Below, one piece after another: positions 7,478 to 64,000 of a stretch of DNA of 64,000 bases (its first letter is position 1; every line of letters begins with the position of its first letter). The position numbers and the translations under genes were made by a program. Origin of the DNA: Pseudomonas putida. GTDB taxonomy: Bacteria > Pseudomonadota > Gammaproteobacteria > Pseudomonadales > Pseudomonadaceae. The DNA is taken from the NCBI RefSeq assembly GCF_002741075.1, contig NZ_CP016634.1, positions 3,130,001 to 3,194,000 on the forward strand. Reading direction: 5' to 3'. Under the pieces are notes generated by a model. It searched no databases. It was not told the DNA's origin and saw nothing but the letters and a program-made list of their open reading frames with translations.

Positions 7478-7481
7478 AGGG

Positions 7482-8057
7482 TCAGATCACCACGTTGCGC
7501 ACGAACCGCGTGGGCTCGCTGCCGTCGTTGCGATAGGCGTACCGGCAATTACTGGGAAACACGTGGAACTCGCCGACCTGCAAACGCAGCTCGCGCGCTT
7601 CGATCAGTAGCGTCAGGCAGCCTGCGACCACGTAGATCTGCTCGCTCCACCCCTCGGCGTCAGCGTCGCTGACATAGCACTCGCCTGGCGCCAGGGTCCA
7701 CTCCCACAGTTCGACTTCACGCAAGGCGGGGCTGCTACCCAGCAAAACCGCCTTGCTCAGGGGATGCTCGCCTGCCCAGGCAAGCTCGTTGATTCGACTT
7801 GGATCGCGCTGTCCAGGCGCCTGGATCAGTGTACTGAAGACCACGCCCAGCGCTTCGGCGATCAGGTCGAGCGTCGTGAGGCTGACGTTCTTCTCGCCGG
7901 CCTCGATGGCGACCAGCATGCGCCGGCTGACCCCGGAACGTTCGGCCAGGGCCGTCTGGCTCATCCCTGCGGCATGACGCAGTTGGCGGATATTCTGGCT
8001 GACATGTTGCAGCACCGAGGCACGGTGCGAGGAATCTTTGTGCACTATATTGCTCAC
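7482..8057 (-). CDS. XRE-family regulator with C-terminal cupin domain
   Basis: About 191 residues. The N-terminal helix-turn-helix reads NIRQLRHAAGMSQTALAERSGVSRRML, followed by EAGEKNVSLTTLDLIAEALG; the C-terminal half is a cupin sensor (GECYVSDADAEGWSEQIYVVAG). No ATG lies at the expected place. I chose a GTG at 8057; a GTG at 8045 is an alternative, and neither has a strong ribosome site. The gene is divergent from an EamA transporter, and a 12-bp perfect palindrome lies between them, so repression or activation of that transporter is the simplest role. The ligand is unknown, possibly an amino acid derivative. Confidence 0.8.
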   Translation of the reverse strand: MSNIVHKDSSHRASVLQHVSQNIRQLRHAAGMSQTALAERSGVSRRMLVAIEAGEKNVSLTTLDLIAEALGVVFSTLIQAPGQRDPSRINELAWAGEHPLSKAVLLGSSPALREVELWEWTLAPGECYVSDADAEGWSEQIYVVAGCLTLLIEARELRLQVGEFHVFPSNCRYAYRNDGSEPTRFVRNVVI

Positions 8058-8070
8058 AGGTAAAGGTTGC

Positions 8071-8082
8071 GCAGTATACTGC
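8071..8082. promoter_or_regulatory. Palindromic operator candidate between XRE-cupin gene and EamA gene
   Basis: GCAGTATACTGC is a perfect 12-bp palindrome containing the -10-like TATACT of a promoter reading toward the EamA gene at 8129. A site that overlaps a -10 is well placed for repression by the neighbouring HTH protein. No footprint or consensus is known to me. Confidence 0.45.
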
Positions 8083-8128
8083 CCACTTTGCGGCGATTGT
8101 GCGCCGCCCTCTATGAGCGCGCAAGACC

Positions 8129-12145: not shown

Positions 12146-12489
12146 TGGAAGAAGTCATTGCCGTGGCCATTGGCGTGCTCGCCGCCTCCGGGGTCTGGCT
12201 GATCCTGCGGCCCCGTACCTACCAGGTCATCATGGGCCTGTGCCTGCTGTCCTATGGTGTCAACCTGTTCATCTTCAGCATGGGCAGCCTGTTCATCGGC
12301 AAGGAGCCGATCATCAAGGAGGGAGTGACGCAGGATCTGCTGCACTACACCGACCCACTGCCCCAGGCCCTGGTACTCACTGCGATCGTCATCAGCTTCG
12401 CCATGACCGCGCTGTTTTTGGTGGTGTTGCTGGCCTCGCGCGGCCTGACCGGCACCGACCATGTCGATGGCCGGGAGCGTGAAGAATGA
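12145..12489 (+). CDS. mrpC: Mrp antiporter subunit C
   Basis: 114 residues with three transmembrane helices, homologous to NuoK of complex I. The pattern ASGVWLILRPRTYQVIMGLCLLSYGVNLFIF and the D-P-L-P-Q-A-L-V-L-T-A-I-V-I motif before the last helix are diagnostic for MrpC/MnhC. It is required in the hetero-oligomer beside subunit D. It is translationally coupled on both sides: TGATG with mrpA and ATGA with mrpD. Confidence 0.93.
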   Translation: MEEVIAVAIGVLAASGVWLILRPRTYQVIMGLCLLSYGVNLFIFSMGSLFIGKEPIIKEGVTQDLLHYTDPLPQALVLTAIVISFAMTALFLVVLLASRGLTGTDHVDGREREE

Positions 12490-14165
12490 GCCTGATGAAC
12501 CAACTGATCATCGCCCCCATCTTGCTGCCGCTGTTGACCGCAGCCGTGATGCTGTTACTGGGCGAAAAGCGGCGCCCGCTCAAGGGGCGCCTGAACCTTC
12601 TGTCCACCCTGATTGGCCTAGGCATCGCCATTACCTTGCTCAGCTGGGTGCGCAGCCAGGGGCAGGCCGAATCGATCGGCGTCTACCTGCCGGGCAACTG
12701 GCCCGCGCCATTCGGCATCGTCCTGGTGGTAGACCACCTGTCCGCGCTGCTGTTGACCCTCACCGGCATTATCGGCGTCAGTGCCCTGCTCTTTGCCAGA
12801 GCCCGCTGGGATGGCGCCGGTGCCAGCTTCCATGCCTTGTTCCAGATCCAGCTCATGGGCCTGTATGGCGCCTTCCTGACGGCGGACCTGTTCAACCTGT
12901 TCGTGTTCTTCGAAGTGCTGCTGGCCGCGTCCTACGGCTTGCTGCTGCATGGCTCGGGACGAGCCCGGGTCAAGGCTGGCTTGCACTACATCGCCATCAA
13001 TCTGTTCGCCTCATCGCTGTTCCTGGTGGGCGCGGCGATGCTCTACGGAGTGACCGGCACCCTGAACATGGCCGACCTGGCGCTGAAAATTCCGCTGGTG
13101 CCGGAGGCCGATCGCGGCCTGTTGCACGCCGGAGCGGCAATCCTGGCTATGGCCTTCCTGGTCAAGGCCGGTATCTGGCCGCTGAACTTCTGGCTGGTGC
13201 CGGCCTATGCTTCGGCCAGCGCGCCGGTTGCGGCACTGTTCGCGATCATGACCAAGGTTGGGCTGTATGCGGTGCTGCGCCTGTGGACCTTGCTGTTCTC
13301 CAGCCAAGCCGGCGCTTCAGCGCACTTCGGCGGGCAATGGCTGGTCTATGGCGGCCTGGCCACTTTGGCCGTGGCGGCACTCTCGATTCTTGCCGCCCAG
13401 CGCCTGGAGCGCTTGGCCGGCCTGAGCATCCTGGTCTCCGCCGGCACCCTCCTGGGAGCCATCGGTTTCGGCCAGCCGATTCTCACGGGCAGTGCGCTGT
13501 TCTACCTGGTGAGCTCGACCCTGGCCCTGTGCGCGCTGTTCCTGCTTGCCGAACTGGTAGAGCGCTCACGCTCGGCCAACGAGGCGCCACTGGATGAAGA
13601 GGACGATGGGATCCCCTCGCCGCTGGAGTCGCTGCACCCACCCAAAGGCATCAACCTGGACGACGAACAAAAGGCGGTGATCGGCCAGATCATTCCCTGG
13701 ACCATGGCCTTCCTGGGCCTGAGCTTCATCGCCTGCGCCTTGCTGATCATCGGCATGCCACCGCTGTCGGGCTTCATCGGCAAACTGAGCCTGATCAGCG
13801 CGCTGTTCAATCCCCAAGGCTTAGGCATGCCGACCGAGCAGCCGCTGTCCGCCTCCGCCTGGTGCCTTGTGGCGCTGCTGATCCTCTCGGGCATGGCCTC
13901 GCTGATCGCCTTCGGCCGTGTGGGCATCCAGCGTTTCTGGAAGCCAGAAGAGCGTCCTTCTCCCCTGCTGCGCCGCTATGAATGCCTGCCCATCGTCATC
14001 CTGTTGGGCCTGTGCATTCTGCTCAGCGTCCAGGCAGAACCCTTGCTGCGCTACACCCAGGACACCGCCGCCAGCCTGCAGACGCCCGATACCTACATCC
14101 AGGCCGTGATGGCGACACGTCCGGTCCCTGGCCCGACCACCGCCGACATACAGGTGCAGCCATGA
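12486..14165 (+). CDS. mrpD: Mrp antiporter subunit D
   Basis: A 559-residue NuoN/NuoM-like proton-translocating subunit with about 14 helices. The essential glutamate is in LFVFFEVLLAASYG at position 143, and the conserved lysine is in AFLVKAGIWPLNFWLVPAY. A charged insertion of about 50 residues (roughly 360-410, ELVERSRSANEAPLDEEDDG onward) sits between helices on the cytoplasmic or periplasmic side and is longer than in Bacillus MrpD. It starts by ATGA overlap with mrpC and ends by ATGA overlap with mrpE. Confidence 0.93.
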   Translation: MSLMNQLIIAPILLPLLTAAVMLLLGEKRRPLKGRLNLLSTLIGLGIAITLLSWVRSQGQAESIGVYLPGNWPAPFGIVLVVDHLSALLLTLTGIIGVSALLFARARWDGAGASFHALFQIQLMGLYGAFLTADLFNLFVFFEVLLAASYGLLLHGSGRARVKAGLHYIAINLFASSLFLVGAAMLYGVTGTLNMADLALKIPLVPEADRGLLHAGAAILAMAFLVKAGIWPLNFWLVPAYASASAPVAALFAIMTKVGLYAVLRLWTLLFSSQAGASAHFGGQWLVYGGLATLAVAALSILAAQRLERLAGLSILVSAGTLLGAIGFGQPILTGSALFYLVSSTLALCALFLLAELVERSRSANEAPLDEEDDGIPSPLESLHPPKGINLDDEQKAVIGQIIPWTMAFLGLSFIACALLIIGMPPLSGFIGKLSLISALFNPQGLGMPTEQPLSASAWCLVALLILSGMASLIAFGRVGIQRFWKPEERPSPLLRRYECLPIVILLGLCILLSVQAEPLLRYTQDTAASLQTPDTYIQAVMATRPVPGPTTADIQVQP

Positions 14166-49471: not shown

Positions 49472-50491
49472 ATGGCACTCTCCCCCCTCAATCGTCGGCG
49501 CTTCGAGCGCTTCAAGGCCAACCGCCGCGGCTGGTGGTCGCTGTGGATATTCATCGTGCTGTTCGGGCTGAGCCTGGGCGCCGAGCTGATCGCCAACGAC
49601 AAACCCATCGCCGTGCGCTACGAAGGCCAGTGGTACTTCCCCGCCTTCAAGCGCTACCCGGAGACCACCTTCGGCGGCGAATTCCCCCTGGAAGCCAACT
49701 ACAAAAGCCCCTACATCCGCGAACTGCTCGCGGCCAAGGACAGCTGGGTGCTGTGGGCGCCGATCCCGTTCAGCTACCAGAGCATCAACTATGACCTCAA
49801 AGTCCCGGCCCCGGCACCACCCTCGGCGGACAACTGGTTGGGGACCGACGACCAGGGCCGCGATGTGATGGCCCGGGTCATCTACGGCTTCCGCGTCTCG
49901 GTGCTGTTCGCCCTGACCCTGACCGTGCTCAGTTCCATCGTCGGCGTCATCGCCGGCGCCCTGCAGGGTTTCTACGGCGGATGGGTGGACCTGGCCGGTC
50001 AGCGCTTCCTGGAGATCTGGTCGGGCCTGCCGGTGCTGTACCTGTTGATCATCCTCGCCAGTTTCGTGCAGCCCAACTTCTGGTGGCTGCTGGGCATCAT
50101 GTTGCTGTTCTCGTGGATGAGCCTGGTGGACGTGGTGCGCGCCGAGTTCCTGCGCGGGCGCAACCTCGAATACGTGCGCGCTGCCCGCGCCCTGGGCATG
50201 CGCGACGGCCCGATCATGTTCCGGCACATCCTGCCCAACGCCATGATCTCCACCATGACCTTCATGCCCTTCATCCTCACCGGCGCCATCGGCACCCTCA
50301 CCGCCCTGGACTTCCTCGGCTTCGGCCTGCCACCGGGCGCGCCGTCGCTCGGTGAGCTGGTGGCCCAGGGCAAGTCCAACCTGCAGGCGCCATGGCTCGG
50401 CATCAGTGCCTTCGCCGTGCTGGCGATCATGCTGAGCCTTCTGGTGTTCATCGGCGAATCCGCCCGCGATGCCTTCGACCCGAGGAAATGA
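49472..50491 (+). CDS. yejE: Peptide/microcin C-type ABC transporter permease YejE
   Basis: A 339-residue permease with an N-terminal cytoplasmic and transmembrane segment (NRRGWWSLWIFIVLFGLSLGAEL), then a large periplasmic region, LGTDDQGRDVMARVIYGFRVS, and five core helices. The EAA-type coupling loop is AARALGMRDGPIMFRHILPNAM. It is separated from yejB by one base and from yejF by one base. Confidence 0.93.
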   Translation: MALSPLNRRRFERFKANRRGWWSLWIFIVLFGLSLGAELIANDKPIAVRYEGQWYFPAFKRYPETTFGGEFPLEANYKSPYIRELLAAKDSWVLWAPIPFSYQSINYDLKVPAPAPPSADNWLGTDDQGRDVMARVIYGFRVSVLFALTLTVLSSIVGVIAGALQGFYGGWVDLAGQRFLEIWSGLPVLYLLIILASFVQPNFWWLLGIMLLFSWMSLVDVVRAEFLRGRNLEYVRAARALGMRDGPIMFRHILPNAMISTMTFMPFILTGAIGTLTALDFLGFGLPPGAPSLGELVAQGKSNLQAPWLGISAFAVLAIMLSLLVFIGESARDAFDPRK

Positions 50492-50492
50492 C

Positions 50493-52091
<1,599 letters not shown>

Positions 52092-52132
52092 CGGTTGTAC
52101 TGGGGCAGGAGGTGTCCCAGTTGTACAGGGTT

Positions 52133-52161
52133 TTGGTGCGTTTTACTGCAAGGTGTAAATT
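52133..52161 (+). promoter_or_regulatory. Candidate promoter for the DUF2846 lipoprotein
   Basis: TTGGTG (52133-52138) and TAAATT (52156-52161) are separated by 17 bp, 40 bp before the ATG at 52202. Confidence 0.45.
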
Positions 52162-52201
52162 AATAGCAAAACGCCACGTTACTGCATGTTAAGGACGACC
52201 C

Positions 52202-52708
52202 ATGCCGCGCTTGCCCATTGCCATTTTTGTCACCCTTTCGTTATTTCTGAGTGCATGTACCACCTTGCACAAAGGCGTAGAGTTTTCGGAGGTAGCCACT
52301 TCGAGAAATGACGCCGCACTGGTCTATCTCTACCGCTCCGGAGTTGCCCCCTTCTGGCGCAGTCCAACACTGGTCATCGACGGTACAGACATCAGCGAGG
52401 TGAAGAACACTTCCTTCACCTACTTCTACCTCACGGAAGGTAAGCACACGATCGCCACACGCTGGGCATTGGATCTGTACCCGCTGAATGTCGAAGGCAG
52501 TATGGAAGTTAAAAACGGGCAGACGTATTTTCTGAAACTGGGCGGGGGAATGTTGATGTCCCCAGGGCTAGGACAAGCTGCCCTCGTCACCAGTATTTCC
52601 TCCAACCTCGGCCAGGTCGACCGCCTGACGGCCCTTCGTGAAATGAAGAGCTGCATGTACATGCCCAACGCACTTGAGCAGCCTTCGCTGACGGCTTACA
52701 GCAATTAA
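52202..52708 (+). CDS. DUF2846-type putative lipoprotein
   Basis: A 168-residue protein with signal and lipobox LFLSACTT (Cys19). The mature part has the DUF2846 pattern: AALVYLYRSG, then TLVIDGTDISEVKNTSFTYFYLTEGKHTIATRW, then NGQTYFLKLGGG. Such proteins are periplasmic or outer-membrane lipoproteins of unknown role in stress responses. It is alone and read away from yejF. Confidence 0.75.
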   Translation: MPRLPIAIFVTLSLFLSACTTLHKGVEFSEVATSRNDAALVYLYRSGVAPFWRSPTLVIDGTDISEVKNTSFTYFYLTEGKHTIATRWALDLYPLNVEGSMEVKNGQTYFLKLGGGMLMSPGLGQAALVTSISSNLGQVDRLTALREMKSCMYMPNALEQPSLTAYSN

Positions 52709-53080: not shown

Positions 53081-53095
53081 TGTTACGTTATCACA
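53081..53095 (+). promoter_or_regulatory. Zur-box-like site before the TonB receptor gene
   Basis: TGTTACGTTATCACA agrees at 11 of 15 positions with the gamma-proteobacterial Zur pattern TGTTATAATATAACA as I remember it. It lies 220 bp before the receptor start. A weaker related sequence (TGCAACGTTATAGCG, 53282-53296) sits just before the gene. This is a reading of pattern, not a measured site. Confidence 0.45.
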
Positions 53096-53315
53096 TTCGA
53101 TACCATGCGTAGCCGTTTGATGAAACTCTCTTCATCAAGATTCAGTCAGGTCTGACGCGAGCTAGGCCGCTTGCATCGGGCGTCTGCGTAAACAGTGCGG
53201 CCTGTGTCGCTTGGTTCAGACAGCACAGGCCAATCAACTCACGGATGGGCAGGTAAGTACCCAGGTCAGGATGGGCATAAATGCAACGTTATAGCGTGAT
53301 AGATGGAGACTTTAC

Positions 53316-55406
53316 GTGAACCCTCGTGCCCCACTTCTGGCAGGCCTGACCTTAGGCTTGTTCGGCCAGCCGATTTCAGCGGCGGAACCCTTGTTGCTGA
53401 ACGAAACCTCGATCACCGATGCCTACCTCGAAGAGCGCGCCGACGGGCCGGTGCAAGGCTATCGTGCCAACCGCTCGGCCACGGCGACCCGAACCGATAC
53501 CGACATTCGCGACACGCCGCAGAGCATCGACGTGGTGCCTGCGCAGGTAATCAAGGACCTCAACACCACCCGCATCGACCGCGCCTTGGACTTTGCCGGT
53601 GGGGTATCGCGGCAGAACAACTTCGGCGGCCTGACCTTCCTCAACTACAGCGTGCGCGGTTTTACCACCGGCGAGCTGTACAAGAACGGTTTCGCCATCA
53701 ACCGCGGCAGCTACAGCGCGCCCGACACCTCCAACATCGAGCGCATCGAAGTGCTCAAAGGCCCTGCTGCCAGCCTCTACGGCCGTGGCGACCCTGGCGG
53801 GCTGGTCAACATCGTTACCAAGCGCCCTCAGGCTGAAGCCTTCAGCACCCTTACCCTCAGCGCAGGCAGCTGGGACCGCTACCGCACTGCCCTGGATGCC
53901 AACTCGCCGCTGGACAGCGAAGGCAATCTGCTGGGTCGGATCAACCTGGCGGTCGAGGACAACGACAGCTTCCGTGATTATGTCGGCAGCGAACGCCGTA
54001 TCGTCAGTCCCTCCCTGACCTGGCAACTGTCGCCCGACACCCGGCTGATGATCGACACCGAGTTTTCCCGCACTGAGTCGGTGTTCGACCGCGGCATTCC
54101 GGCAGTTAATGGCGAAATGGGCTCGGTCAAGCGCTCGACCTTCCTTGGCGAGCCGAATGACGGCGAGATCCGCAACGACAATCAGACCCTCGACGTCGCA
54201 CTGGAACACGTGCTCAACGACAACTGGAAGTTGCGTCTGGCCAACCACTACACCCAGGGGACACTCAAGGGCAACAGCTCCGAACCCCAGGCCCTGTTCG
54301 GCACCACAATCACGCGTTTCTATCGTGAACGCGACTTCGAATGGAACGACAGCATCACCCAAGCCGAGCTGCACGGCCTGTTTGAGTTGGGCGGCTGGCA
54401 GCATCAGACCCTGGTCGGGCTGGAGTACGAAAACTACCGCAACAGCCAGAAGTACCCACAGAGTGCCACCTCCGCAGGGTATGGGCTGGACATCTACAAC
54501 CCGATCTACGGCAAGCCGAAGCCAGCCATCACCCGACCCAACGACTTCTTCGAGCACACCGAAAGCTATGCGCTCAACCTGCAAGACCAGATCGCATTCA
54601 CCGAGCGCCTTCGCGGGTTGCTGGGCGTTCGCCTGGAGCGCTTCGAACAGACCTCGCAAAACCGCGCCACCGGCGTCAGCAACAGCCAGGAAAAGGACGT
54701 CGCCACACCGCGCATTGGGATTTTGTACCAACTAACCCCGCAAGTCGGTGTGTTCGCCAACGCATCCACCTCGTTCAAACCCAACACCATCGGCACCCAG
54801 GGCCAGGTGTACAAACCTGAAAAAGGTCTGGGTTACGAGACCGGGATCAAGCTCGACCTGCTCGATAGCCGCGTGGGTGCAACCCTCGCCCTGTTCCACA
54901 TCGATAAGGAGAACGTCATCACCACCGATGCCCTTGGCGAGAGCGTGGCGGCCGGCGAGGCGCGCAGCCAAGGCCTGGACCTGCAGCTAAGCGGCCAGCT
55001 CACCGACGCGCTGCGGGTGATCGGCGCCTATGCCTATATCGACGCCGAGGTCACCAAGGGTGACGCGACCCTACCCAAGGGTAGCGACCTGCTGGGCATC
55101 GCCCGCAACAGCGGCAGCCTGATGGGCGTTTATGAATTCCAGGACGGCGCCTTGCGCGGCTCGGACGTGGGCGCTGCGGTGAACTACGTCGGCGAGCGCT
55201 CCGGCCAGGCCGGCAGCGAATTCACCCTGGACGCCTACAGCACGGTCGACCTGCTAGCGCACTACAAGGCCAGCGAACAGGTCACCGTCGGCCTGAACCT
55301 CAACAACCTGTTCGACCGCAAGTACTACGAACGCTCGTACAACAGCTCCTGGGTGCTACCCGGTGAGCCGCGCAACTTCAGTGTGAGCCTGACCCTGAGT
55401 CTTTGA
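53316..55406 (+). CDS. TonB-dependent outer-membrane receptor
   Basis: A 696-residue protein. The signal peptide ends near FGQPISAAEP. A TonB-box-like segment (ETSITDAYL) precedes the plug domain, which contains the typical DTPQSIDVVPAQVIKDL and IERIEVLKGPAASLYGRGDPGG. The 22-strand barrel ends in the aromatic-rich FSVSLTLSL. It starts with a GTG preceded by GGAGA. Its overall family is that of ferric-siderophore receptors. Here a metal or metallophore other than iron is likely, because it sits with the zinc-type genes behind a Zur-like box. Confidence 0.88.
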   Translation: MNPRAPLLAGLTLGLFGQPISAAEPLLLNETSITDAYLEERADGPVQGYRANRSATATRTDTDIRDTPQSIDVVPAQVIKDLNTTRIDRALDFAGGVSRQNNFGGLTFLNYSVRGFTTGELYKNGFAINRGSYSAPDTSNIERIEVLKGPAASLYGRGDPGGLVNIVTKRPQAEAFSTLTLSAGSWDRYRTALDANSPLDSEGNLLGRINLAVEDNDSFRDYVGSERRIVSPSLTWQLSPDTRLMIDTEFSRTESVFDRGIPAVNGEMGSVKRSTFLGEPNDGEIRNDNQTLDVALEHVLNDNWKLRLANHYTQGTLKGNSSEPQALFGTTITRFYRERDFEWNDSITQAELHGLFELGGWQHQTLVGLEYENYRNSQKYPQSATSAGYGLDIYNPIYGKPKPAITRPNDFFEHTESYALNLQDQIAFTERLRGLLGVRLERFEQTSQNRATGVSNSQEKDVATPRIGILYQLTPQVGVFANASTSFKPNTIGTQGQVYKPEKGLGYETGIKLDLLDSRVGATLALFHIDKENVITTDALGESVAAGEARSQGLDLQLSGQLTDALRVIGAYAYIDAEVTKGDATLPKGSDLLGIARNSGSLMGVYEFQDGALRGSDVGAAVNYVGERSGQAGSEFTLDAYSTVDLLAHYKASEQVTVGLNLNNLFDRKYYERSYNSSWVLPGEPRNFSVSLTLSL

Positions 55407-55420
55407 GCTGAGGAACTATT

Positions 55421-56143
55421 ATGCATCCATCGTTGAAAGTGGCCACTCTGGTGGCCATGGTGATCAGCACCAACGCCAGTGCCCACGGCCTGTGGACCGA
55501 GGAGCGACGCGGCAACATCGAGGCCGTGTACGGCCACGGTGCCGAGGACAGCGCCTACAAGGCGGAGAAGATCAAGCGCGCCTGGGCATTCGACGCAGCC
55601 GGGGAAATGGTCCCGGTCACCGTCGAACGCCTGGCGGATCATGCGGTCCTGCAACCGCTCACCCCACCTGCGGCACTTGCAGTGCTGCTGGACAACGGGC
55701 CTTGGTCGCAGCGCCCGAACAAGCAATGGGTCAATCAGGACCGCACCCAGGTCAAGGATGCGATCGCCTCCACCCACAGCTTCAAATACAGCCTGGCCAT
55801 TTACCAGAGCGGTGCCCGCCTGCCAAAACTGGACATGCTGCGTTTGGCGATCGTCCCCCTGAGCGACCCGCTGCAAGTTGGGCCAGGCAAGACACTGGAA
55901 GTGCAGGTGCTGCTCGACGGCAAACCGGCTGCGAATATACCGTTGCAAGGGGATTACCGAGGCTCGCCTCACCAGGTCAGCGCCACCACCGACAAGCAAG
56001 GCAAGGCACGCATCACCGTACGCAACGAGGGCCTCAACATCATCGCGGCGCAGGCCACCCTGCCACTGGCAGAAGGCGGACCTGTAGCCCAGCAGAGTCT
56101 GTTCAGTTCGCTCACATTCCTGGGTGAGCCGCACCACGAGTAA
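55421..56143 (+). CDS. DUF4198-type periplasmic metal-related protein
   Basis: A 240-residue secreted protein with signal peptide ending near NASAHGLW. The sequence keeps the DUF4198 (NikM-like) features AHxxW at the mature start, a repeated beta sandwich and the C-terminal GKARITVRNEGLNIIAA. Such proteins occur with TonB receptors and metal importers, where they may receive metal in the periplasm. It lies 14 bp after the receptor gene and so belongs to the same transcript. Confidence 0.78.
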   Translation: MHPSLKVATLVAMVISTNASAHGLWTEERRGNIEAVYGHGAEDSAYKAEKIKRAWAFDAAGEMVPVTVERLADHAVLQPLTPPAALAVLLDNGPWSQRPNKQWVNQDRTQVKDAIASTHSFKYSLAIYQSGARLPKLDMLRLAIVPLSDPLQVGPGKTLEVQVLLDGKPAANIPLQGDYRGSPHQVSATTDKQGKARITVRNEGLNIIAAQATLPLAEGGPVAQQSLFSSLTFLGEPHHE

Positions 56144-56153
56144 CTTTTGCGTC

Positions 56154-56179
56154 GTGCCTCGGCATGTCGGCCGAGGCAC
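56154..56179 (+). terminator. Hairpin after the DUF4198 gene
   Basis: GTGCCTCGGC (56154-56163) pairs perfectly with GCCGAGGCAC (56170-56179) around a 6-nt loop. No T run follows, so it may attenuate rather than end the transcript. Confidence 0.5.
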
Positions 56180-56283
56180 GGCAGACACTTCCCGCCAGAA
56201 GACCAACGGTCGACCCAGCCGTTAGACGCCGCCTCGCTCGGCAACTACCCTGAATTCCTCGGCATTCCTTAAAGGAGTACGGA

Positions 56284-56634
56284 ATGGGTACCTGCAACCA
56301 GCATCCACACCATGACCATCAGCACAAGCCGGGCTGCGGCCATACGGCAATCGAACACAATGGACATGTCGATTATCTGCATGATGGGCACTTGCATCAC
56401 GTGCATGGCGATCATGTCGACGAACACATACTGGAAGCCAACGGCCAAAACCCCGAGCGCTGCACACCCGGCCACCAGTGTGGCGGCCATGCCGCCGACC
56501 ACGTTCATGGCCCGGGTTGCGGCCATGAGGCGGTTCCCCACGGCGACCATGTCGATTACCTGGTCAACGGCCACCTGCACCACCCGCATGGCGATCACTG
56601 CGACGACCACGGCCCGGTGACGATGGTCAAATGA
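56284..56634 (+). CDS. Two-repeat histidine-rich metal-binding protein
   Basis: A 116-residue protein with 28 histidines and no signal peptide. It consists of two repeats of about 33 residues (16-48 and 77-109, 23 of 33 identical) built on P-G-C-G-H, H-V-D-Y-L, N/D-G-H-L-H-H and H-G-D-H. Each unit offers cysteine and histidine ligands, so the protein should bind several zinc or similar ions. A strong AAGGAG precedes the ATG. It may store or deliver metal in the cytoplasm. I do not know a characterised homologue. Confidence 0.75.
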   Translation: MGTCNQHPHHDHQHKPGCGHTAIEHNGHVDYLHDGHLHHVHGDHVDEHILEANGQNPERCTPGHQCGGHAADHVHGPGCGHEAVPHGDHVDYLVNGHLHHPHGDHCDDHGPVTMVK

Positions 56635-56643
56635 CCCTTGCCC

Positions 56644-56669
56644 GCCTCCAGCCAGCAAGGGCTGGAGGC
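56644..56669. terminator. Hairpin between convergent genes
   Basis: GCCTCCAGCC pairs with GGCTGGAGGC in a perfect 10-bp stem with a 6-nt loop, between the histidine-rich gene and the convergent binding-protein gene. Confidence 0.7.
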
Positions 56670-56676
56670 GCTAACC

Positions 56677-57552
56677 TCACTGGCCGCCCAAGGCCTGGGT
56701 GAGGGTTTGCACATTCTGCTGGTACATGCCCAGGTAGGTACTGGCGGGGCCCTGGGCGGCTAGTGCATCGGAATACAGCGTCCCACCTACCTTCGCCCCG
56801 GTATCGTCGGCAATCTGCTGCAGCAGACGGGAATCCTTGATGTTCTCGATGAACACGGCCTTGATCTTGTCGCGCTTGATCATCGTGATGATGTTAGCGA
56901 CATCTTTGGCGGTCGGCTCCTGTTCGGTGGAAAGGCCTTGAGGTGCCAGGAACTCGATGCCATAAGCCTGCCCCAGGTAACCGAAGGCGTCATGCGAGGT
57001 CACGATACGGCGGCTGTTGGCCGGCAACGCGGCGAAGCGTTTCTTCACCTCGGTCAGCAAGGCGTCGATCTGCTGCTGATAGGCTGCCAGATGGCTGCGA
57101 TACGCCTGCGCATTGCCTGGGTCCACGGCTTCCAGCGCCTTGGCGATGTTGGCCGCGTAGATCTTGGCGTTGGCCAAGCTGTTCCAGGCATGGGGGTCGG
57201 GGATAGTCTGCCCCTCCTCTTGCAGGGTCCGCGCAAGGATACCCTGGCTGGCCCGAACGACGTGAGCCTGGCTGCCAGTGGTCTTGATCAGACGGTCCAA
57301 CCAAGGTTCGAAGTTAAGCCCATTCTCCACCACCAGGTGCGCCTGCAGCACATGTCTGGCATCGTCCGGCGTGGTCTCGTAGACATGCGCATCGCTGTCG
57401 GGGCCGACGATGTTGATGACCTGCACCTGATCGCTACCGATTTGTCGGGTGATATCGGCCAGAATACTGAAGCTGGTCACCACCTTGATGCGTTCTGCGG
57501 CGGACAGAAACGGTGACAGCAACAGCATGAACACAACGATCAACAGGCGCAT
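56677..57552 (-). CDS. Metal ABC importer substrate-binding protein (zinc type)
   Basis: A 291-residue cluster-9 periplasmic binding protein with signal peptide ending SPFLSAAERI. The metal ligands fall at His56 (DAHVYETTP), His121 (DPHAWNSL), His187 (TSHDAFGYL) and Asp262 (LYSDALA). The third ligand is histidine rather than the glutamate of manganese binders, so zinc is the likely metal. It lacks the histidine-rich loop of ZnuA, and the symbol znuA is therefore withheld. It is third in the ABC operon, 9 bp after the permease stop. Confidence 0.87.
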   Translation of the reverse strand: MRLLIVVFMLLLSPFLSAAERIKVVTSFSILADITRQIGSDQVQVINIVGPDSDAHVYETTPDDARHVLQAHLVVENGLNFEPWLDRLIKTTGSQAHVVRASQGILARTLQEEGQTIPDPHAWNSLANAKIYAANIAKALEAVDPGNAQAYRSHLAAYQQQIDALLTEVKKRFAALPANSRRIVTSHDAFGYLGQAYGIEFLAPQGLSTEQEPTAKDVANIITMIKRDKIKAVFIENIKDSRLLQQIADDTGAKVGGTLYSDALAAQGPASTYLGMYQQNVQTLTQALGGQ

Positions 57553-57561
57553 AGCGGCTCC

Positions 57562-58422
57562 TCAATGAGTGACAGGGGTATAGTGACGACGCAACAGACC
57601 ACGCACCGGCCCCACCATCACCGAGAGCAGGTAGGCACTGCCAGCCACGACGACGATGGCCGGGCCACAGGGCAGCGAGGCGTAATAGGACAACAGCAGC
57701 CCCAGCCAGACCGAGCCCATGCCGATCAGCGCCGAGATGGCCATCAACCAGGGCAGGCGCTGGCTCCAGAAGCGTGCGGCAATGGCCGGCAGCATCATCA
57801 AGCCGACCACCATCAAGGCGCCGATGGCCTGGAAACCGACCACCAGGTTGATCACCACCAGCCCCAGGAACACGCCATGGGCGATGGGCCCGCAGCGGCT
57901 GACGCTACGCAGGAACAGCGGGTCGAGGCTATCGAGCAGCAAGGCACGGTAAATCAGGGCGAAGGTCAGCAGGCTGCCTGTGGCGACCCATACCATGGTG
58001 CGCAAGGTCGCCTGGTCGACCGCCAGGGCCGAGCCGAACAACAACCCCAGCAAGTCCAGGCGCTTGCCCGCAAGCCCAAGCAGCAGAACACCCGAAGCCA
58101 GTGAAATCGGGTAGACCGCCGCCAGGCTTGCGTCCTCGCGCAAGCCGGTGTGACGGCTTACCAATGCCGAGAAGCCTGCCACCAGCAAGCCCGCCAACAG
58201 GCCGCCAAGCGTCATAGCCACCACAGACAGCCCTGCCAGCCAGAAGCCCAACGCCGCGCCCGGCAAGATGCCATGGGAAATGGCATCGCCGATCAGGCTC
58301 ATGCGCCGCACCACCAGGAACACCCCCAACGGCGCGACACTCAGCGCCAGGGTGAGCCCCCCAAACAGCGCACGGCGCATGAAGGCGAATTCGACGAAGG
58401 GTGCCCATGCCGGATCGAACAT
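57562..58422 (-). CDS. Metal ABC importer permease
   Basis: A 286-residue ZnuB/MntB-family inner-membrane protein with about eight helices. Family stretches are VRRMSLIGDAISHGILPGAALGFWL and VVGFQAIGALMVVGLMMLPAIAARFW. The ATG at 58422 overlaps the ATPase TGA by one base and follows GGGGGAGG. It carries the metal released by the binding protein encoded next. Confidence 0.9.
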   Translation of the reverse strand: MFDPAWAPFVEFAFMRRALFGGLTLALSVAPLGVFLVVRRMSLIGDAISHGILPGAALGFWLAGLSVVAMTLGGLLAGLLVAGFSALVSRHTGLREDASLAAVYPISLASGVLLLGLAGKRLDLLGLLFGSALAVDQATLRTMVWVATGSLLTFALIYRALLLDSLDPLFLRSVSRCGPIAHGVFLGLVVINLVVGFQAIGALMVVGLMMLPAIAARFWSQRLPWLMAISALIGMGSVWLGLLLSYYASLPCGPAIVVVAGSAYLLSVMVGPVRGLLRRHYTPVTH

Positions 58423-59087
58423 CACTGCACCTCCCCCAGGCTGGCTTGACCGATCACGCTATGACTGGGCCCGTATTGGCAACCCTCGCTGTCGACCAGC
58501 AGGCAGTACTCGGCCATCTCGCGCACTCGCGACAGGTCATGGCTGACCACCACTACCGTGTGGCCAGTTTTGTGCCAGGCATCGATATGCCGCCAGAGCA
58601 ACGCCTGCCCGGCCTTGTCCAGCGCCGAATCGGGCTCGTCGAGCAGCAGCAGGTTGGCATCGGTCAGGCTCAAGCGTGCCAGCAGCGCACGTTGCAACTC
58701 GCCGCCGGAAAGCGCCTCGAGCGTGTGGGCTTCGAGTTTGTCGATATCCCAGGCTCGCAGCGCCTGGCGCAGGCGCTGTCTGCGCTCTCGGCGGCTCAGG
58801 TGTTGGCCCCAGAAGCCGCCGCTGACCAATTCGCCCAGGCTAATGGGAAATTGCCGGTCTATGGCTGAACGCTGGTTCAGATAGCCGACTTTCGTACCTT
58901 CGGCACCGATGCGAAAGCGCCCGGACAACGGCTTCTGCAAGCCGGCAAGCACTTTCAAGAGGCTGCTTTTGCCAGCGCCATTGGCCCCCACCACTGCAGT
59001 CAGACTGCCAGCCGGCAGCTGGATATTCAGATGCGGGGTCAACGGGCTGTTGGCGGCCCCCCACAAAAGGTCTTGGCACAGAATCAC
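58422..59087 (-). CDS. Metal ABC importer ATP-binding protein
   Basis: A 221-residue nucleotide-binding domain. Walker A is VVGANGAGKSSLLK, the signature motif LSGGELQRALLARLS, Walker B LLLLDEPDSAL, and the switch histidine is in VVVVSHDLSR. I took a GTG at 59087; a TTG at 59126 would place 13 residues before the usual start. It is the first gene of the unit and lies directly behind a Zur-like box, so it should be induced by zinc shortage. Confidence 0.88.
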   Translation of the reverse strand: MILCQDLLWGAANSPLTPHLNIQLPAGSLTAVVGANGAGKSSLLKVLAGLQKPLSGRFRIGAEGTKVGYLNQRSAIDRQFPISLGELVSGGFWGQHLSRRERRQRLRQALRAWDIDKLEAHTLEALSGGELQRALLARLSLTDANLLLLDEPDSALDKAGQALLWRHIDAWHKTGHTVVVVSHDLSRVREMAEYCLLVDSEGCQYGPSHSVIGQASLGEVQ

Positions 59088-59146
59088 GGGTGAGTTCCAA
59101 AACGAAAGACAAGGAAGTGGCCGCAAACGCTGGCCTCACCACGCAA

Positions 59147-59174
59147 ATGATATGTTATAACAAATCTAATGCAA
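59147..59174 (-). promoter_or_regulatory. Promoter of the metal ABC operon overlapped by a Zur-like box
   Basis: Read on the minus strand, -35 TTGCAT (59169-59174) and -10 TATCAT (59147-59152) are 16 bp apart. The box TGATATGTTATAACA (59148-59162) matches the remembered Zur pattern at 12 of 15 positions, contains the palindrome TGTTATAACA and covers the spacer and the -10. Repression by Zur under zinc-replete conditions is the natural reading. Confidence 0.68.
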
Positions 59175-59185
59175 CGCTTTTCTAT

Positions 59186-59587
59186 TCAGTCACAGCCTTT
59201 CAGACGATTGCAGCTGAGACGTCCTTGGCCACCGCTGGAGGTGGAAAAGCGCGTGATGACATCCCAGCCGAATGGCCGTGCCAGGCCGGACCAGACGTTG
59301 CCATCGCTGCTCAGCCCCGTGAAGAAATGCAAGCGCCCATGACGCGTGGTGGTCTGCGCCCAGGTCAGGCCAGAGCCCGCGTCGAAACCACGCAGGAACA
59401 GGTCGTTGCCGCGTTGTGCCATACCGTAGTAGCCGCCCTGGCTGTCGGTACAGCGCAGCAAGGTAGCACTGCGTACGCAATGCAGGGTGGCACCGCCGAT
59501 CATCGGCAGTTCGGCATGTGCCAGGGGAACACCTGTCAACGGCAGCCACAGCAGCAGTTTCGCGATGCACGCAGTGAATTGTTTCAT
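59186..59587 (-). CDS. Small secreted protein linked to the P-type ATPase
   Basis: A 133-residue protein with signal peptide ending VPLAHAELP. The mature part has four cysteines (ATLHCVRSATLLRCTDS and LSCNRLKGC), which could form two disulfides. Its ATG overlaps the ATPase stop (ATGA), so it is made with that protein. A gene in this place next to hmtA is what I recall from P. aeruginosa. A periplasmic partner of the ATPase is a reasonable guess; the sequence gives no further clue. Confidence 0.65.
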   Translation of the reverse strand: MKQFTACIAKLLLWLPLTGVPLAHAELPMIGGATLHCVRSATLLRCTDSQGGYYGMAQRGNDLFLRGFDAGSGLTWAQTTTRHGRLHFFTGLSSDGNVWSGLARPFGWDVITRFSTSSGGQGRLSCNRLKGCD

Positions 59588-61524
59588 GACAGCGGTACTT
59601 CGTCCCTTTCATCGTAGCGCAGCAGCCGCCCGGCATTGCCGAGCACCAGCAAGGTACTGAGGTTGTGCAGCAGCGCCGCGATCATCGCGCCGGCCGCACC
59701 CAACAGCCCGAACGCCGCAGCCAGCATGATCCCCACCGTCCAGCCGAGCCCGATCAGCACGTTCCATTGCAGGGTACGCCGGCACAGGCGACTGAGGCGT
59801 ACACCGGTGGCCAGGCGGCGCAGGTCACCATTGATCAGTACGATGTCCGCCGCGGCCATGGCGATGTCGGTTCCGCCCGCACCCATGGCGATACCCACGA
59901 CGCCTGCTTTGAGCGCCAGCGAGTCGTTGATGCCGTCGCCGACCACCATCGGTCTGAAACCAGCCTGGATTTCTTGATTGACCTGCTTGAGCTTGTCTTC
60001 TGGCAACGCCTGGGCGACCACATTGGCGATGCCCACCTGGCTCGCCACCAACTGCGCCACGCTGTGGCGATCGCCGGTCAGCAGCAACTGCCGGCGTAAC
60101 CCAAGCTCGCGCAATTGCGCCAACGCTTCAGGCGCTTCTCGTCGTACGTTGTCGGCCAGCAGCAGCCAGGCCAGAAAACGCCCGTGCAGCGCCAGGCCAA
60201 CGATCGGACCATCGTGCTCCGGCACCGCCGGCAACGCGATGCCCAGTTTCTGGAACAGCTCCGCACGCCCCAGCGCGGCCTGGCCCTGGTCGGTCGACGC
60301 TACCACGCCGAAACCTTGCATCTCGTGTAATTCGTCGAGCGCAAGGTGCTGCTCGTGAGGAACGGACTTGGCCAAGGCACGGCTGACGGGGTGACTGCTC
60401 GCCGTGCCCAGGCTGGCAGCCAGGCGCAGCACCTGCTGCTCCGCCACCTCGGTTTGGCTGCTCACGACCTGCTGCAGATGCAATGCCCCTTTGGTCAAGG
60501 TGCCGGTCTTGTCGATCACTAGCGACGACAGGTCGGCAAGTTCTTCGAGAAACGCAGAGCTACGAATCAGAATGCCATGCCGCGCCGCAACGGCGACCCC
60601 AGCAATGGCCGTGGCCGGGGCCGACAGCACCAGTGCACATGGGCAAGCCGCCACCAACACGGCCAGCATGGCCTGGGCATCGCCGGTGATGAACCAGGTG
60701 GCCGCCGCGATCATCAGCACCAGCAGCAGGTAACGCCCAGCATAGCGTTCGAGCAACCGGGTGATGGGTGGCTTGGCCTGCTCTGCGCGGCGCATCAGGG
60801 CAATCACCTTGCCCAGGGTGGAGTCCTCGCCGGTGGCTGTCACCTCGATGCGTAGCAAACCATCGAGGTTGATCGCGCCGGCATGCACATGCGCACCCGC
60901 CGCGACCTCCTGTGGCAAGGACTCGCCGGTGATGGGCGCGGTATCGAGGCTGGCCTGGCCCTCGAGCACGCGCCCATCGGCCGGTACCCGGTCACCGGCT
61001 CGCACTTCTACCCGATCCCCCGCCTTGAGGCTGGCATTGTCGACCTCGCTCACCTCGCCGTTGGCGCCGATCAGCCGCGCCTGGCTGCGCGTCAGGCGGC
61101 CCAGGGCATCGATGGCTTCCTGCGAGCCCAGCACGCTGCGCTCTTCGAGCACGTGCCCGAAGATCATGATGATCGGCAACAAGGCAGCGGTGGTCAGGTC
61201 GCCAATGGCCCAGGCGCCAAGCATGGCCAACGCGATCAACTGGTCGGTGACGCCATGCAGGCTCGGCTGTTTGAGGCTGTGCCACGCCGAGCCCAGCACC
61301 GGCACGGCCACCAGTAACGACGCAGCGCCCAGCAGTAACTGCGCAACGCCCTCCTGGCCTGAAGCCAAGCCGTGCCAGGCCAATCCCAGCGCCAGCAGCC
61401 CGAGGGCGACCATAGCCAAGGTCAACTGGCGTGCGGCCTGCCGGCGCTCGTCCCCAGACAGCAGCCCCGAGGTGAGGTGGACATGGCCATGATGGTGGTG
61501 GCCGTGGTGATGGTGGGCGCTCAT
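59584..61524 (-). CDS. hmtA: Heavy-metal P1B-type ATPase, HmtA-like (putative zinc/copper importer)
   Basis: A 646-residue ATPase. The N terminus carries ten histidines within residues 4-16 instead of a soluble metal-binding domain. Motifs: CPC in helix 6 (294-296), D338-KTGTLT (phosphorylated aspartate), SHPVSR (His378), VVGDGINDS. In the last helix an HN-x-ST (His620) replaces the D-x-G of zinc-exporting P1B-2 pumps, and the matching lysine of helix 7 is absent. P. aeruginosa HmtA was reported to import zinc and copper; the context of Zur-like control and three SPFH genes agrees with that type, but transport direction here is inferred. Confidence 0.72.
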   Translation of the reverse strand: MSAHHHHGHHHHGHVHLTSGLLSGDERRQAARQLTLAMVALGLLALGLAWHGLASGQEGVAQLLLGAASLLVAVPVLGSAWHSLKQPSLHGVTDQLIALAMLGAWAIGDLTTAALLPIIMIFGHVLEERSVLGSQEAIDALGRLTRSQARLIGANGEVSEVDNASLKAGDRVEVRAGDRVPADGRVLEGQASLDTAPITGESLPQEVAAGAHVHAGAINLDGLLRIEVTATGEDSTLGKVIALMRRAEQAKPPITRLLERYAGRYLLLVLMIAAATWFITGDAQAMLAVLVAACPCALVLSAPATAIAGVAVAARHGILIRSSAFLEELADLSSLVIDKTGTLTKGALHLQQVVSSQTEVAEQQVLRLAASLGTASSHPVSRALAKSVPHEQHLALDELHEMQGFGVVASTDQGQAALGRAELFQKLGIALPAVPEHDGPIVGLALHGRFLAWLLLADNVRREAPEALAQLRELGLRRQLLLTGDRHSVAQLVASQVGIANVVAQALPEDKLKQVNQEIQAGFRPMVVGDGINDSLALKAGVVGIAMGAGGTDIAMAAADIVLINGDLRRLATGVRLSRLCRRTLQWNVLIGLGWTVGIMLAAAFGLLGAAGAMIAALLHNLSTLLVLGNAGRLLRYDERDEVPLS

Positions 61525-61561
61525 CGGCTGGGGTTCCAAATGCAGGGGCCAGAATAAGTGT

Positions 61562-62587
61562 TCATTGTTGGGGGCCTTGCAGGATCAAGCGCCCACTGTA
61601 CTCGGGGCTGACCGTGGTGACGGAGCCCGCGCGGGACAGGATGGCAGGCACCCGCTCACGATACAGGCGCAGCATCAGGCCCGGGTCCTGCTGCTGCGCC
61701 AAGCCGACGATGGTGCTGGTGTCGGCACTCGCCTGCGCCAGCCGCTCACGCGCCTGGGCCTGGGCAACCTGCACGGTCCGGTCGGCACTCTGGGTTGCCT
61801 GCTGCAGGCGCTGCGCTGCTTCGTTGCGGGCGCTCGCCACCGCTTGCTCAGCGCGTTGGCTGGCGGTGAGCACGGCATTGAAGGCGCTCACCGCCGAGGG
61901 CGGGAGCGAAGACTGCACATCCACCCGCACCACCGTGATGCCCAGGTCGGCGCCCGCCGCCTTGAGCGCCGCCAGGCTGCGGTTGATGCCCTGTTGCAAG
62001 TCACCGCGTAGACGCTCACGGCGCTCGGCAACCTGCGCATCGGCGCCCACCAATTCAGGCCGCGCGACCAGAATCGCATCCATGTCTCGGGATGCGCAGA
62101 CCTGAACGGCATTGCGCTCCACCAGCCGATCCAGGGCCGGCTCCACATGAACGCCCTGACGGGCAAAGGCAAACGGCTCGACAACCTGATAGAACACCCG
62201 CACTTCAAGCTGCACGATGCCTGCATCGGCAGTGAGCAGGTAACCTGACCCGGCCGTCGCGTCGCTGGCCGGCGCGAGCCCCCGGTCCGCTTTACGTGCG
62301 AAGTCCGAGCGCAGCAACAACTCCACTTTGCGCTCAGTCACCCGCCCGTCCGAAGGCAGCATCACCACTTGCTCGAACGGACGCGGCCAGGCCAGCAGCA
62401 GGCCAGCATTCTGGATACGGTGCTCGGCCCCCAGCCTGAGCACCACGGCCCGGCTTTCCGGCCCCACTGAACGAACATTGCCGAACAGCCAGCCCAGCGC
62501 GGCGAGCACGGTCACCGCGTACAGGGCGATAAAACCAATACGCGCCGACTGCAACCAGGGCCCGCCAGGCTGGCGCGGGCTAGTCAT
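61562..62587 (-). CDS. SPFH-domain membrane protein (HflK/HflC-like) adjacent to the ATPase
   Basis: A 341-residue protein with one N-terminal helix (IGFIALYAVTVLAALGWLFG), then an SPFH domain (about 40-230) with GPESRAVVLRLGAEHRI and FYQVVEPFAFAR. The C-terminal part is a long alanine- and glutamine-rich coiled coil (ASARNEAAQRLQQATQSADR). SPFH proteins form membrane-bound rings that organise partners. It lies 37 bp before the ATPase gene and overlaps the next SPFH gene by 8 nt, so it is not the normal hflKC pair that sits with hfq and purA. Confidence 0.85.
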   Translation of the reverse strand: MTSPRQPGGPWLQSARIGFIALYAVTVLAALGWLFGNVRSVGPESRAVVLRLGAEHRIQNAGLLLAWPRPFEQVVMLPSDGRVTERKVELLLRSDFARKADRGLAPASDATAGSGYLLTADAGIVQLEVRVFYQVVEPFAFARQGVHVEPALDRLVERNAVQVCASRDMDAILVARPELVGADAQVAERRERLRGDLQQGINRSLAALKAAGADLGITVVRVDVQSSLPPSAVSAFNAVLTASQRAEQAVASARNEAAQRLQQATQSADRTVQVAQAQARERLAQASADTSTIVGLAQQQDPGLMLRLYRERVPAILSRAGSVTTVSPEYSGRLILQGPQQ

Positions 62588-63620
62588 GGCCTTGCCCTGC
62601 CTGGCGGGTCAGCGAAGCCGGCGGGTTGGGTCCGTCGATCAGCGCCCGGAACGGTGCCGCGTCGGTGCGCAGCACCAGGCGTGTGTCGGGCGTCACGATA
62701 GTGCCCAAGGTGTCCAGCGAGCGCAGCAGCTTGTACAGCTCCGGCGCGCTGGCGTAGGCCTTGCCGTAAATCTGTGCCGCCTCGACCTGTGACTGCGCCT
62801 GGATCTGCGCCGCCTTCACATTGGCGTCAGCCTCCAGGATTCGGGCATCCCGCTCAGCCGCCGAGCGGATTTCTGCCGCCTTGCGCTTGCCTTCGGCCGT
62901 ACGCTCGGTAGCGATCGTCTCGCGCTCGGCGCGCATGCGGTCTACGGTAGCTTCCAAGGTCACCTTGGGCAGGGTGAGGCGTTCGACCCCGACCTGGACC
63001 ACCTTGATGCCATAGGTCTGGGCCAGCTGATCGGCAATATGCGCCTGCAACCGCTGCTCGAAGGTCTCGATGCGTACTCGCCCAGGGTCGACATTGACCA
63101 GATCCGCCAGTTCGAAGCCGCTGGTGGTGGTTTCCAGCGCCGAGCCCACCAGCGTACGGATCTGCCGCGCTGCTTCGTCCGGCTGGTTCTGCACCGCGCG
63201 CATGAAGCGCTGGATATCCTGCGGGTCCGGTGACACCTGCCAGGCGATATAAGCCTGCACGATGATGCGCAGGCCGTCGCGGGTACCGACATCGTGCAAA
63301 CCACTGGAGGTGGTGCGCAGGCGCAGGTCGACCGGCACCGCCACCTCGAACGGTTGCGGCCAGCGCCAGGCCAGGCCAGGCTCTACCAGCACCCGTGTCG
63401 GGTTGCCGAAGCGGGTGATGACCGTCGCCTCGCCCACACGCACCTGGACGAAGCAGGCCACTACCGCCAATAGCAGCACCAGCAGTACCGCCCCTAGGAT
63501 TCGTGGCCAGGCCGGCCGCGCCGGCCCGTCGTGTTCGGCGCTGTGATGGTCGTGATCATGGCCATGCGCGCAGCCATGGGCAGCATGATCATCGTGAGCG
63601 TGAGAAGCGTGAGGACTCAA
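62580..63620 (-). CDS. SPFH-domain protein (HflC-like) with histidine-rich N terminus
   Basis: A 346-residue protein. The first 32 residues hold eleven histidines and one cysteine, a likely metal-binding tail on the cytoplasmic side. One helix follows (ILGAVLLVLLLAVVACFVQV), then an SPFH domain with GEATVITRFGNPTRVL, and a long helix ending in RAERETIATERTAEGKRKAAEIRSAAE, which is the HflC signature. The start is a TTG overlapping the previous stop and preceded by AGGAGCG. The histidine tail ties this ring protein to metal transport. Confidence 0.85.
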   Translation of the reverse strand: MSPHASHAHDDHAAHGCAHGHDHDHHSAEHDGPARPAWPRILGAVLLVLLLAVVACFVQVRVGEATVITRFGNPTRVLVEPGLAWRWPQPFEVAVPVDLRLRTTSSGLHDVGTRDGLRIIVQAYIAWQVSPDPQDIQRFMRAVQNQPDEAARQIRTLVGSALETTTSGFELADLVNVDPGRVRIETFEQRLQAHIADQLAQTYGIKVVQVGVERLTLPKVTLEATVDRMRAERETIATERTAEGKRKAAEIRSAAERDARILEADANVKAAQIQAQSQVEAAQIYGKAYASAPELYKLLRSLDTLGTIVTPDTRLVLRTDAAPFRALIDGPNPPASLTRQAGQGHD

Positions 63621-64000
63621 GGGGTGCGCTCCTGGTTCGGTTTCGAGGTGGCCGGATCAACCGGCGCGGCGAAGGTACGCAAATCAAGGGTTGGGGCCTG
63701 ACCCGCACTGATGCGGTGGTCGATGATCAACGCCTTACTGTCGCGCAGGCCTTCTCGCAACCGCGCTAGGTACTGTTCCAGCACGAACGCTGCACCAGCC
63801 TGTCGCCAGGCCGCCCGCTCGGCGTCGAAGCCAAGTTCTGCGGCCTGGGCCTTGGCGTTTGTTTCGTGGGCGCTTGCAGCGGCCTGGTCGACCAGCAGCG
63901 CGGCATTCTGGCGGGCCTGGCCGGTCTGCTCAGCGGCCTGACCGCGATCACGGGCGATCAGTGCCTGCGCAGCGATCTGCGCCGCCTGCACGCCATGATA
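63617..64000 (-). CDS. SPFH-domain protein, C-terminal part only
   Basis: The last 127 residues of a third SPFH protein; the start lies to the right of the window. What is visible is the coiled-coil region (AQALIARDRGQAAEQTGQAR) and the tail LRDSKALIIDHRISAGQAP, as in HflK C termini. Its stop overlaps the TTG of the HflC-like gene, so the three SPFH genes are co-translated. Confidence 0.7.
   Translation of the reverse strand, partial: YHGVQAAQIAAQALIARDRGQAAEQTGQARQNAALLVDQAAASAHETNAKAQAAELGFDAERAAWRQAGAAFVLEQYLARLREGLRDSKALIIDHRISAGQAPTLDLRTFAAPVDPATSKPNQERTP

Follow-up and report, generated by a model that had tools for sequence, protein, structure and literature searches.

The closest described relative of the locus presented here is the gene cluster PA2439-PA2434 of Pseudomonas aeruginosa, which shows the same gene order and printed annotations and has been connected with Zur and with induction by zinc starvation. 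Among SPFH proteins, the nearest counterparts are the HflK/HflC cage around the protease FtsH (7vhp, 7wi3, 9cz2) and the SPFH-NfeD operons (QmcA-YbbJ, 8z5g), in which an SPFH protein is likewise co-encoded with a fixed membrane partner. We analyzed a stretch of 64,000 nucleotides of the 5.8 Mb genome of Pseudomonas putida (assembly GCF_002741075.1, contig NZ_CP016634.1, forward-strand positions 3,130,001 to 3,194,000; hereafter the window), which ends in a cassette of three SPFH genes followed by a gene for an HmtA-like P1B-type ATPase. The new observation is the absolute linkage of the first SPFH gene (SPFH1) with the ATPase in all samples examined, and we see strong support for a functional unit made up of the ATPase and all three SPFH proteins. 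The cassette itself is already known in P. aeruginosa as PA2439-PA2435, an orthology that we infer from gene order and annotation and that includes the equivalence of the ATPase with PA2435 (HmtA). In the window it comprises the following features:

63617..64000, minus strand, C-terminal 127 aa of SPFH1, HflK-like (Band_7 E 1.2e-20)
62580..63620, minus strand, SPFH2, an HflC-like SPFH protein with a His-rich N-terminal head (Band_7 E 7.6e-32)
61562..62587, minus strand, SPFH3, an HflK-like SPFH protein (Band_7 E 5.4e-17)
59584..61524, minus strand, HmtA-like P1B ATPase by domain matches, counted from its ATG start (a TTG at 61539 is an alternative start)

SPFH1 crosses the end of the window, and the whole protein of about 654 aa (positions 11617-13581 of the extended P. 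putida locus L009) reaches to the window-equivalent position 65581. The reading frames of SPFH1 and SPFH2 overlap at 63620/63617 and those of SPFH2 and SPFH3 at 62587/62580, which fits a co-translation of the SPFH genes, and the ATG of the ATPase follows about 37 bp past the SPFH3 stop. Further upstream of the cassette and beyond the window end, the translations read as KdpE-, KdpD-, KdpC- and KdpB-like genes.

Separate searches for SPFH1 and for the ATPase found each protein in 28 of 198 genomes of the Pseudomonas family (P. putida included) and in 10 of 72,556 plasmids, and in both cases in the same genomes and the same records. The cut-offs, which were chosen by us, were 1e-20 for SPFH1 and 1e-120 for the ATPase in the family genomes, and 1e-10 and 1e-100 in the plasmids. 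Neither an SPFH1 without the ATPase nor an ATPase without SPFH1 occurred among these 198 genomes and 72,556 plasmids. The ten plasmids belong to Rhizobium (7), Klebsiella (1), Paraburkholderia (1) and Burkholderia (1), that is to three proteobacterial classes; closely related loci do not count as independent evidence, and linkage is better tested by the plasmids. The separate search for the ATPase covered the family, the plasmids and a class-wide sample, in which P. putida was the only match among 274 at the strict cut-off of 1e-100. Additional SPFH1 searches yielded 3 of 145 order-wide and 11 of 398 phylum-wide, and two more searches within families gave hits in 10 of 198 and 1 of 199; the loci of other families appear to come from enterobacterial and rhizobial genome families. 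On the Klebsiella plasmid (L173), which is conjugative, the cassette is located near a Tn3-family transposase and a DUF4198 gene lies ahead of it.

The arrangement of the four genes is equally constant. It is kept at 27/27 family loci, at 84/85 contig and plasmid loci (80 contigs and 5 of the 10 plasmids) and at 10/11 loci of other families, and thus, with P. putida, at 122 of 124 loci. Both exceptions are contig ends, one just past SPFH1 (L127) and one inside SPFH2 (L205), and were left out of all counts based on 122 loci. The 80 contigs are the best of 394 relatives, 78 of them named Pseudomonas and two Pantoea, and are therefore biased to close kin; among the named relatives in this set, the SPFH1 most similar to that of P. 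putida (93%) belongs to an uncultured Pseudomonas. Some loci represent the same contig twice (L041, L095); near-copies were removed, and one gene order was found in all 110 remaining loci. Furthermore, the SPFH1/SPFH2 frames overlap in 88 and the SPFH2/SPFH3 frames in 118 of the 122 loci, and the four proteins have distance matrices with mutual correlations of 0.94 to 0.98. Among 44 to 66 well-supported splits, 1 to 8 per comparison contradict one that is equally well supported for the other protein, and some of these conflicts are deep. Because of the shared occurrence, the common order and the correlated distances, the four genes seem for the most part to move and evolve as one unit, and the tight tie between SPFH genes and ATPase given in a preliminary description of this DNA is borne out. 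The patchy distribution and the plasmid carriage could also be explained by selfish linkage, in which the genes travel as a mobile block without a joint function, but overlapping frames, a single order in the dereplicated loci and similar protein distances make this explanation very improbable.

In print, the SPFH trio has been read as a zinc-starvation form of HflK/HflC that modulates the zinc metalloprotease FtsH, and HmtA would then be a co-regulated neighbour. The cassette proteins do resemble HflK and HflC, zinc papers annotate them as HflK/HflC or FtsH modulators, and FtsH, being a zinc enzyme, could conceivably be linked to a shortage of zinc. All three proteins exceed the Pfam cut-off for Band_7 (74.7, 111.2 and 62.8 bits for SPFH1, SPFH2 and SPFH3, cut-off 23.6), and an HflK-like SPFH fold with long C-terminal helices is predicted. 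However, SPFH2 stays below the equivalog level of HflC (TIGR01932, 111 bits, cut-off 134.4) and the HflK model (TIGR01933, cut-off 159.4) gave 54.5 and 87.3 bits, the latter for SPFH3. The two FtsH-type genes of the genome are remote (5.03 and 1.08 Mb, compared with 3.19 Mb for the cassette), and a separate HflK/HflC-type pair is encoded at 4.56 Mb. Neither ftsH nor NfeD is among the features listed beside four annotated plasmid cassettes, whose gene tables are incomplete; NfeD was searched for nowhere else. In contrast to HflK/HflC, the cassette has three SPFH members, a six-helix membrane domain on one of them, a His-rich head on another and a constant link to a P-type ATPase, and in contrast to the SPFH-NfeD operons its partner is a metal ATPase. 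As SPFH1 and HmtA were never found apart in family genomes, plasmids or any sufficiently sequenced locus, we consider a modulation of FtsH unlikely.

SPFH1 has seven predicted transmembrane helices, six of which form an N-terminal domain, followed by one ahead of the SPFH domain. In a confident predicted model these six helices resemble the zinc transporters of the CDF family (YiiP, ZnT1/3/7/10) over all six helices, a likeness that speaks for the solved families listed and does not thereby exclude others. A homology to CDF proteins at the sequence level was considered as well and found no support: PF01545 is not among 25 of 31 Pfam families listed for the domain (E up to 10), with none for the first member, an hhalign comparison with the five CDF proteins of the same genome, a thin five-sequence profile, resulted in a probability of 0.2, and the ligand pairs of CDF proteins (D/H/ExxxD/H/E) are present in TM2 or TM5 (transmembrane helices 2 and 5) of none of 31 sequences. 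We therefore claim a common predicted fold only. The His-rich stretches, which had been described as tails, are both N-terminal heads. In SPFH2 the head contains 11 His, precedes the single transmembrane helix and is kept in 119/122 loci; the head of the ATPase contains 10 His in P. putida and is found in only 35/122 loci.

Evidence for a role of the cassette in zinc metabolism comes from P. aeruginosa, where loss of znuA is reported to raise PA2434, PA2435 and PA2437-PA2439 by factors of 5.6 to 14.4 and Zur shifts the PA2439 promoter in vitro. Proteins of the cluster are also higher in zinc-poor cells, with PA2438 and PA2439 called significant in the text, and zinc starvation induced by NAC raises PA2437-PA2439, which are termed FtsH modulators in that study. 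In line with this, a palindrome resembling TGTTATANNATAACA with at most 3 mismatches occurs in a 620-bp stretch around the estimated SPFH1 start in 105 of the 124 loci. Of 3875 control stretches taken from these loci, 62 have one too, and real boxes may be included among them; of the 19 loci left, several have such a box at 4 mismatches. Zinc is the likely metal of the cassette. The preliminary description had regarded the mechanism as undescribed. The cluster itself is not new, as PA2434-PA2439 appear in zinc papers, but in the open-licence literature searched we found neither a proposed mechanism nor the suggestion that HmtA has an SPFH ring. P. putida differs from P. aeruginosa in that it has no Zur-like box before SPFH1 and no gene between SPFH3 and HmtA, and in that AztABC-like and TonB units are located alongside. 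A probably secreted 150-aa protein without a Pfam match is encoded at the position of PA2436, between SPFH3 and HmtA, in the locus L045 (11208-11660) and in 11 other loci.

The ATPase carries CPC in the ion-site helix and LHNLST in the last helix, and both marks are invariant, with CPC in 122/122 loci and LHNx[S/G]T likewise in 122/122 (107 and 13 in a first count, 2 in a second). ATPases of the P1B-2 type (ZntA) are marked by CPC together with a Lys in TM7 and an Asp in TM8, and those of the P1B-4 type (CoaT/CzcP) by SPC and HEGGT-type motifs. The cassette ATPase shares CPC with ZntA, but its H625 aligns with the Asp and a Val with the Lys, and the ZntA model scored 285.1 at a cut-off of 1240; it also departs from the P1B-4 type by having CPC and LHNx[S/G]T. 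The nearest solved structure by sequence is 7qbz. Export is the usual polarity of P1B ATPases, and one could imagine that HmtA exports metal into a periplasmic compartment formed by the SPFH cage, which hands it on to periplasmic or membrane metalloproteins. The ion-site motifs, unlike both the ZntA and the CoaT type, leave room for this idea, and a review, as far as covered here, points out that Zn and Cu import by HmtA was concluded from overexpression and needs confirmation. According to the same review, overexpression raises the metal content of the cells, and the binding of Zur in P. aeruginosa together with the boxes at most of the loci suits import better than export, so that we assign export a low probability.

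The cassette is part of a longer metal-gene stretch that occupies both strands of the window from 53081 to 64000. Every gene named in the preliminary description was found at its position by open reading frames and domain scan. The remaining features are:

59186..59587, minus strand, 133-aa protein without family match, an open reading frame between ATPase and ABC genes that overlaps the ATPase stop
59148..59162, minus strand, Zur-like box TGTTATAACATATCA ahead of the azt-like genes, 1 mismatch to the consensus
58422..59126, minus strand, AztA-like ABC ATPase (NCBIfam 174.5 bits, cut-off 220)
57562..58425, minus strand, AztB-like permease (NCBIfam 232.6 bits, cut-off 280)
56677..57552, minus strand, AztC-like zinc-binding protein (ZnuA family E 2.3e-84; NCBIfam 275 bits, cut-off 350)
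56284..56634, plus strand, His-rich protein with two GHVDYL..GHLHH.HGDH repeats (open reading frame)
55421..56143, plus strand, DUF4198 protein (E 3.8e-18)
53316..55406, plus strand, TonB-dependent receptor of the siderophore class (TIGR01783, 368.7 bits)
53081..53095, plus strand, Zur-like box ahead of the receptor gene, which matches the consensus with 2 mismatches on its better strand

In total, the window contains 8 matches to the Zur-like consensus at up to 3 mismatches, with both strands of one place counted, compared with a chance mean of 1.22. Because of the strand arrangement and the Zur-like boxes, the stretch is probably organized in at least three transcription units: the cassette with the 133-aa protein, the ABC importer behind its own box and, on the plus strand, the TonB receptor with the DUF4198 and His-repeat genes. 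The proposal of a single zinc island is therefore not sustained, and the azt-like, TonB receptor, DUF4198 and His-repeat genes are variable neighbours, none of which is present in the 22 kb stretch of the closest relative found (L093). The 133-aa protein is probably secreted, as judged from its signal-like N-terminus, and has relatives in 4 other loci. The three importer genes match AztA, AztB and AztC best in NCBIfam, although none of the scores reaches the respective equivalog cut-off. Among solved structures, the binding protein is closest to the chains 8svc and 5kzj, and there are three more matches to the ZnuA family elsewhere in the genome. The nearest relatives of the receptor in the PDB are the enantio-pyochelin receptor and FoxA/CntO. 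Beyond their location, we see nothing unusual in these zinc-type units, which are separate from the cassette. One relative of the two-repeat His protein is encoded on the Paraburkholderia plasmid L174, beside ZnuABC-like genes and zigA; genes for a Fur-family regulator, zigA and a ZnuABC-like zinc ABC transporter (1145-8515) lie near the cassette there. Ahead of the TonB unit (49472-52708), peptide-type ABC transporter genes, by our reading, and a DUF2846 gene look ordinary.

In many Pseudomonas loci, azt-like, gamma-carbonic anhydrase-like, amidohydrolase (dihydroorotase-like) and FolE2 genes are located a few kb from the cassette, and the last three types are known as zinc-starvation genes in P. 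aeruginosa, according to the sources as far as covered. A cyclopropane fatty acid synthase gene is found near the cassette in 74 of 124 loci, while genes of the PLD family (cardiolipin synthase-like) occur there in 73 loci and DUF3617 genes likewise in 73. Such neighbours would be expected if the cassette organized a membrane microdomain together with lipid genes, with the ATPase as one client among several. However, all 74 loci (L050-L061, L064 and 61 contig loci between L108 and L172) belong to one large Pseudomonas group, the lipid genes may be part of the adjoining zinc-starvation locus, and the ATPase is present in all 122 judgeable loci, which makes this explanation quite improbable.

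Taking the cassette as a whole, the explanation that we regard as best, with about even chances of being right, is a mobile cassette in which an SPFH ring or cage has the P1B ATPase and not FtsH as dedicated client. SPFH1, SPFH2 and SPFH3 would assemble in the inner membrane into a hetero-oligomeric ring or cage of the HflKC kind, and the product of the fourth gene would take the place of the protease. A pump housed in the ring is the reading with the fewest assumptions, and we place it ahead of FtsH modulation and of export at a probability close to one half. A possible working analogue is the dome that stomatin forms around aquaporin-1 and UT-B, in which a transporter is likewise enclosed by an SPFH cage; it differs from the cassette in being eukaryotic and not operon-encoded and in having a client that is not an ATPase (PMC12407830). 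A more detailed picture of a "caged pump", which combines a CDF-shaped/SPFH fusion with a ring of His-rich zinc-binding heads to a metal-loading nano-compartment, is offered tentatively. In the working that we propose for the best explanation, the six-helix domain of SPFH1 might contribute to the wall of the ring or serve the pump as docking site, many SPFH2 heads on the cytosolic face might bind zinc beside it, and the HflK/HflC-like SPFH domains with their long C-terminal helices might close a periplasmic vestibule over it. Under zinc starvation, with release of Zur in most hosts, caged HmtA would move zinc, most likely inward, the direction proposed for HmtA of P. aeruginosa, to be taken up by the His heads.

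Several points weigh against a caged zinc importer. Most P1B ATPases export, and the physical contact between the SPFH ring and the ATPase is a proposal. The CDF likeness of SPFH1 comes without support from the sequence, and helix bundles may score well from their arrangement alone. The His head of SPFH2 is absent from three cassettes (L173, L206, L207), and 2/122 loci have a single short SPFH frame (SPFH2 at 12212-12697 in L191; SPFH3 at 12972-13634 in L168), which we attribute to decay or a sequencing fault. As far as the respective papers were covered, hmtA mRNA was low and not repressed by zinc in one P. aeruginosa study, and a review excepts hmtA from the promoters bound by Zur, which conflicts with the shift of the PA2439 promoter. 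The p-values of the proteome data are mostly above 0.05, with only one below (PA2438 0.011 and 0.053; PA2439 0.184 and 0.065; PA2435 0.052 and 0.121; PA2437 0.423). A triple deletion of paFlo5-7 in PA14 (PA14_33070/33080/33110, corresponding to SPFH1-3), published in 2026, had slight effects; in the sections covered it was examined without zinc limitation, and the terms hmtA, ATPase, transporter and P-type do not occur in the main text (PMC13086221). At least one neighbour of zinc-starvation type lies within the flank in only 71/124 loci, and a general zinc neighbourhood was accordingly dropped as proof. Cytochrome bd, phosphoketolase and acetate kinase genes lie less than 12 kb from the cassette on the Rhizobium plasmid L176, which has no annotated zinc gene there. 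Finally, no Zur-like box was found at the cassette in P. putida, in its 93% relative L093 or in the five plasmid cassettes read. For P. putida, neither the pattern nor a matrix built from the boxes of the relatives gave a match at the cassette start (L009 13582-14700), in contrast to the majority of other Pseudomonas cassettes, and the cassette may be under another control. The link to zinc drawn in the preliminary description is supported for the family by the P. aeruginosa data and the boxes, but in the P. putida genome Zur-like boxes precede the azt-like and TonB units only. Two rhizobial-type loci (L177 and L189) share a palindrome-like stretch, GATACGTAATAACGTATC, about 60-110 bp ahead of the estimated SPFH1 start, which is perhaps the box of another regulator.

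Few bacterial SPFH rings have a known client, and the invariant and horizontally spread link to an ATPase names a candidate client. If our reading is true, the cassette would be, as far as we know, the first case of a bacterial SPFH ring with a primary transporter as fixed client, and a metal-loading nano-compartment would have passed from one proteobacterial class to another in the form of a single mobile cassette. This also bears on the claimed import by HmtA, a P-type ATPase, as a scaffold or vestibule encoded in the same cassette could explain the unusual behaviour reported upon its overexpression.

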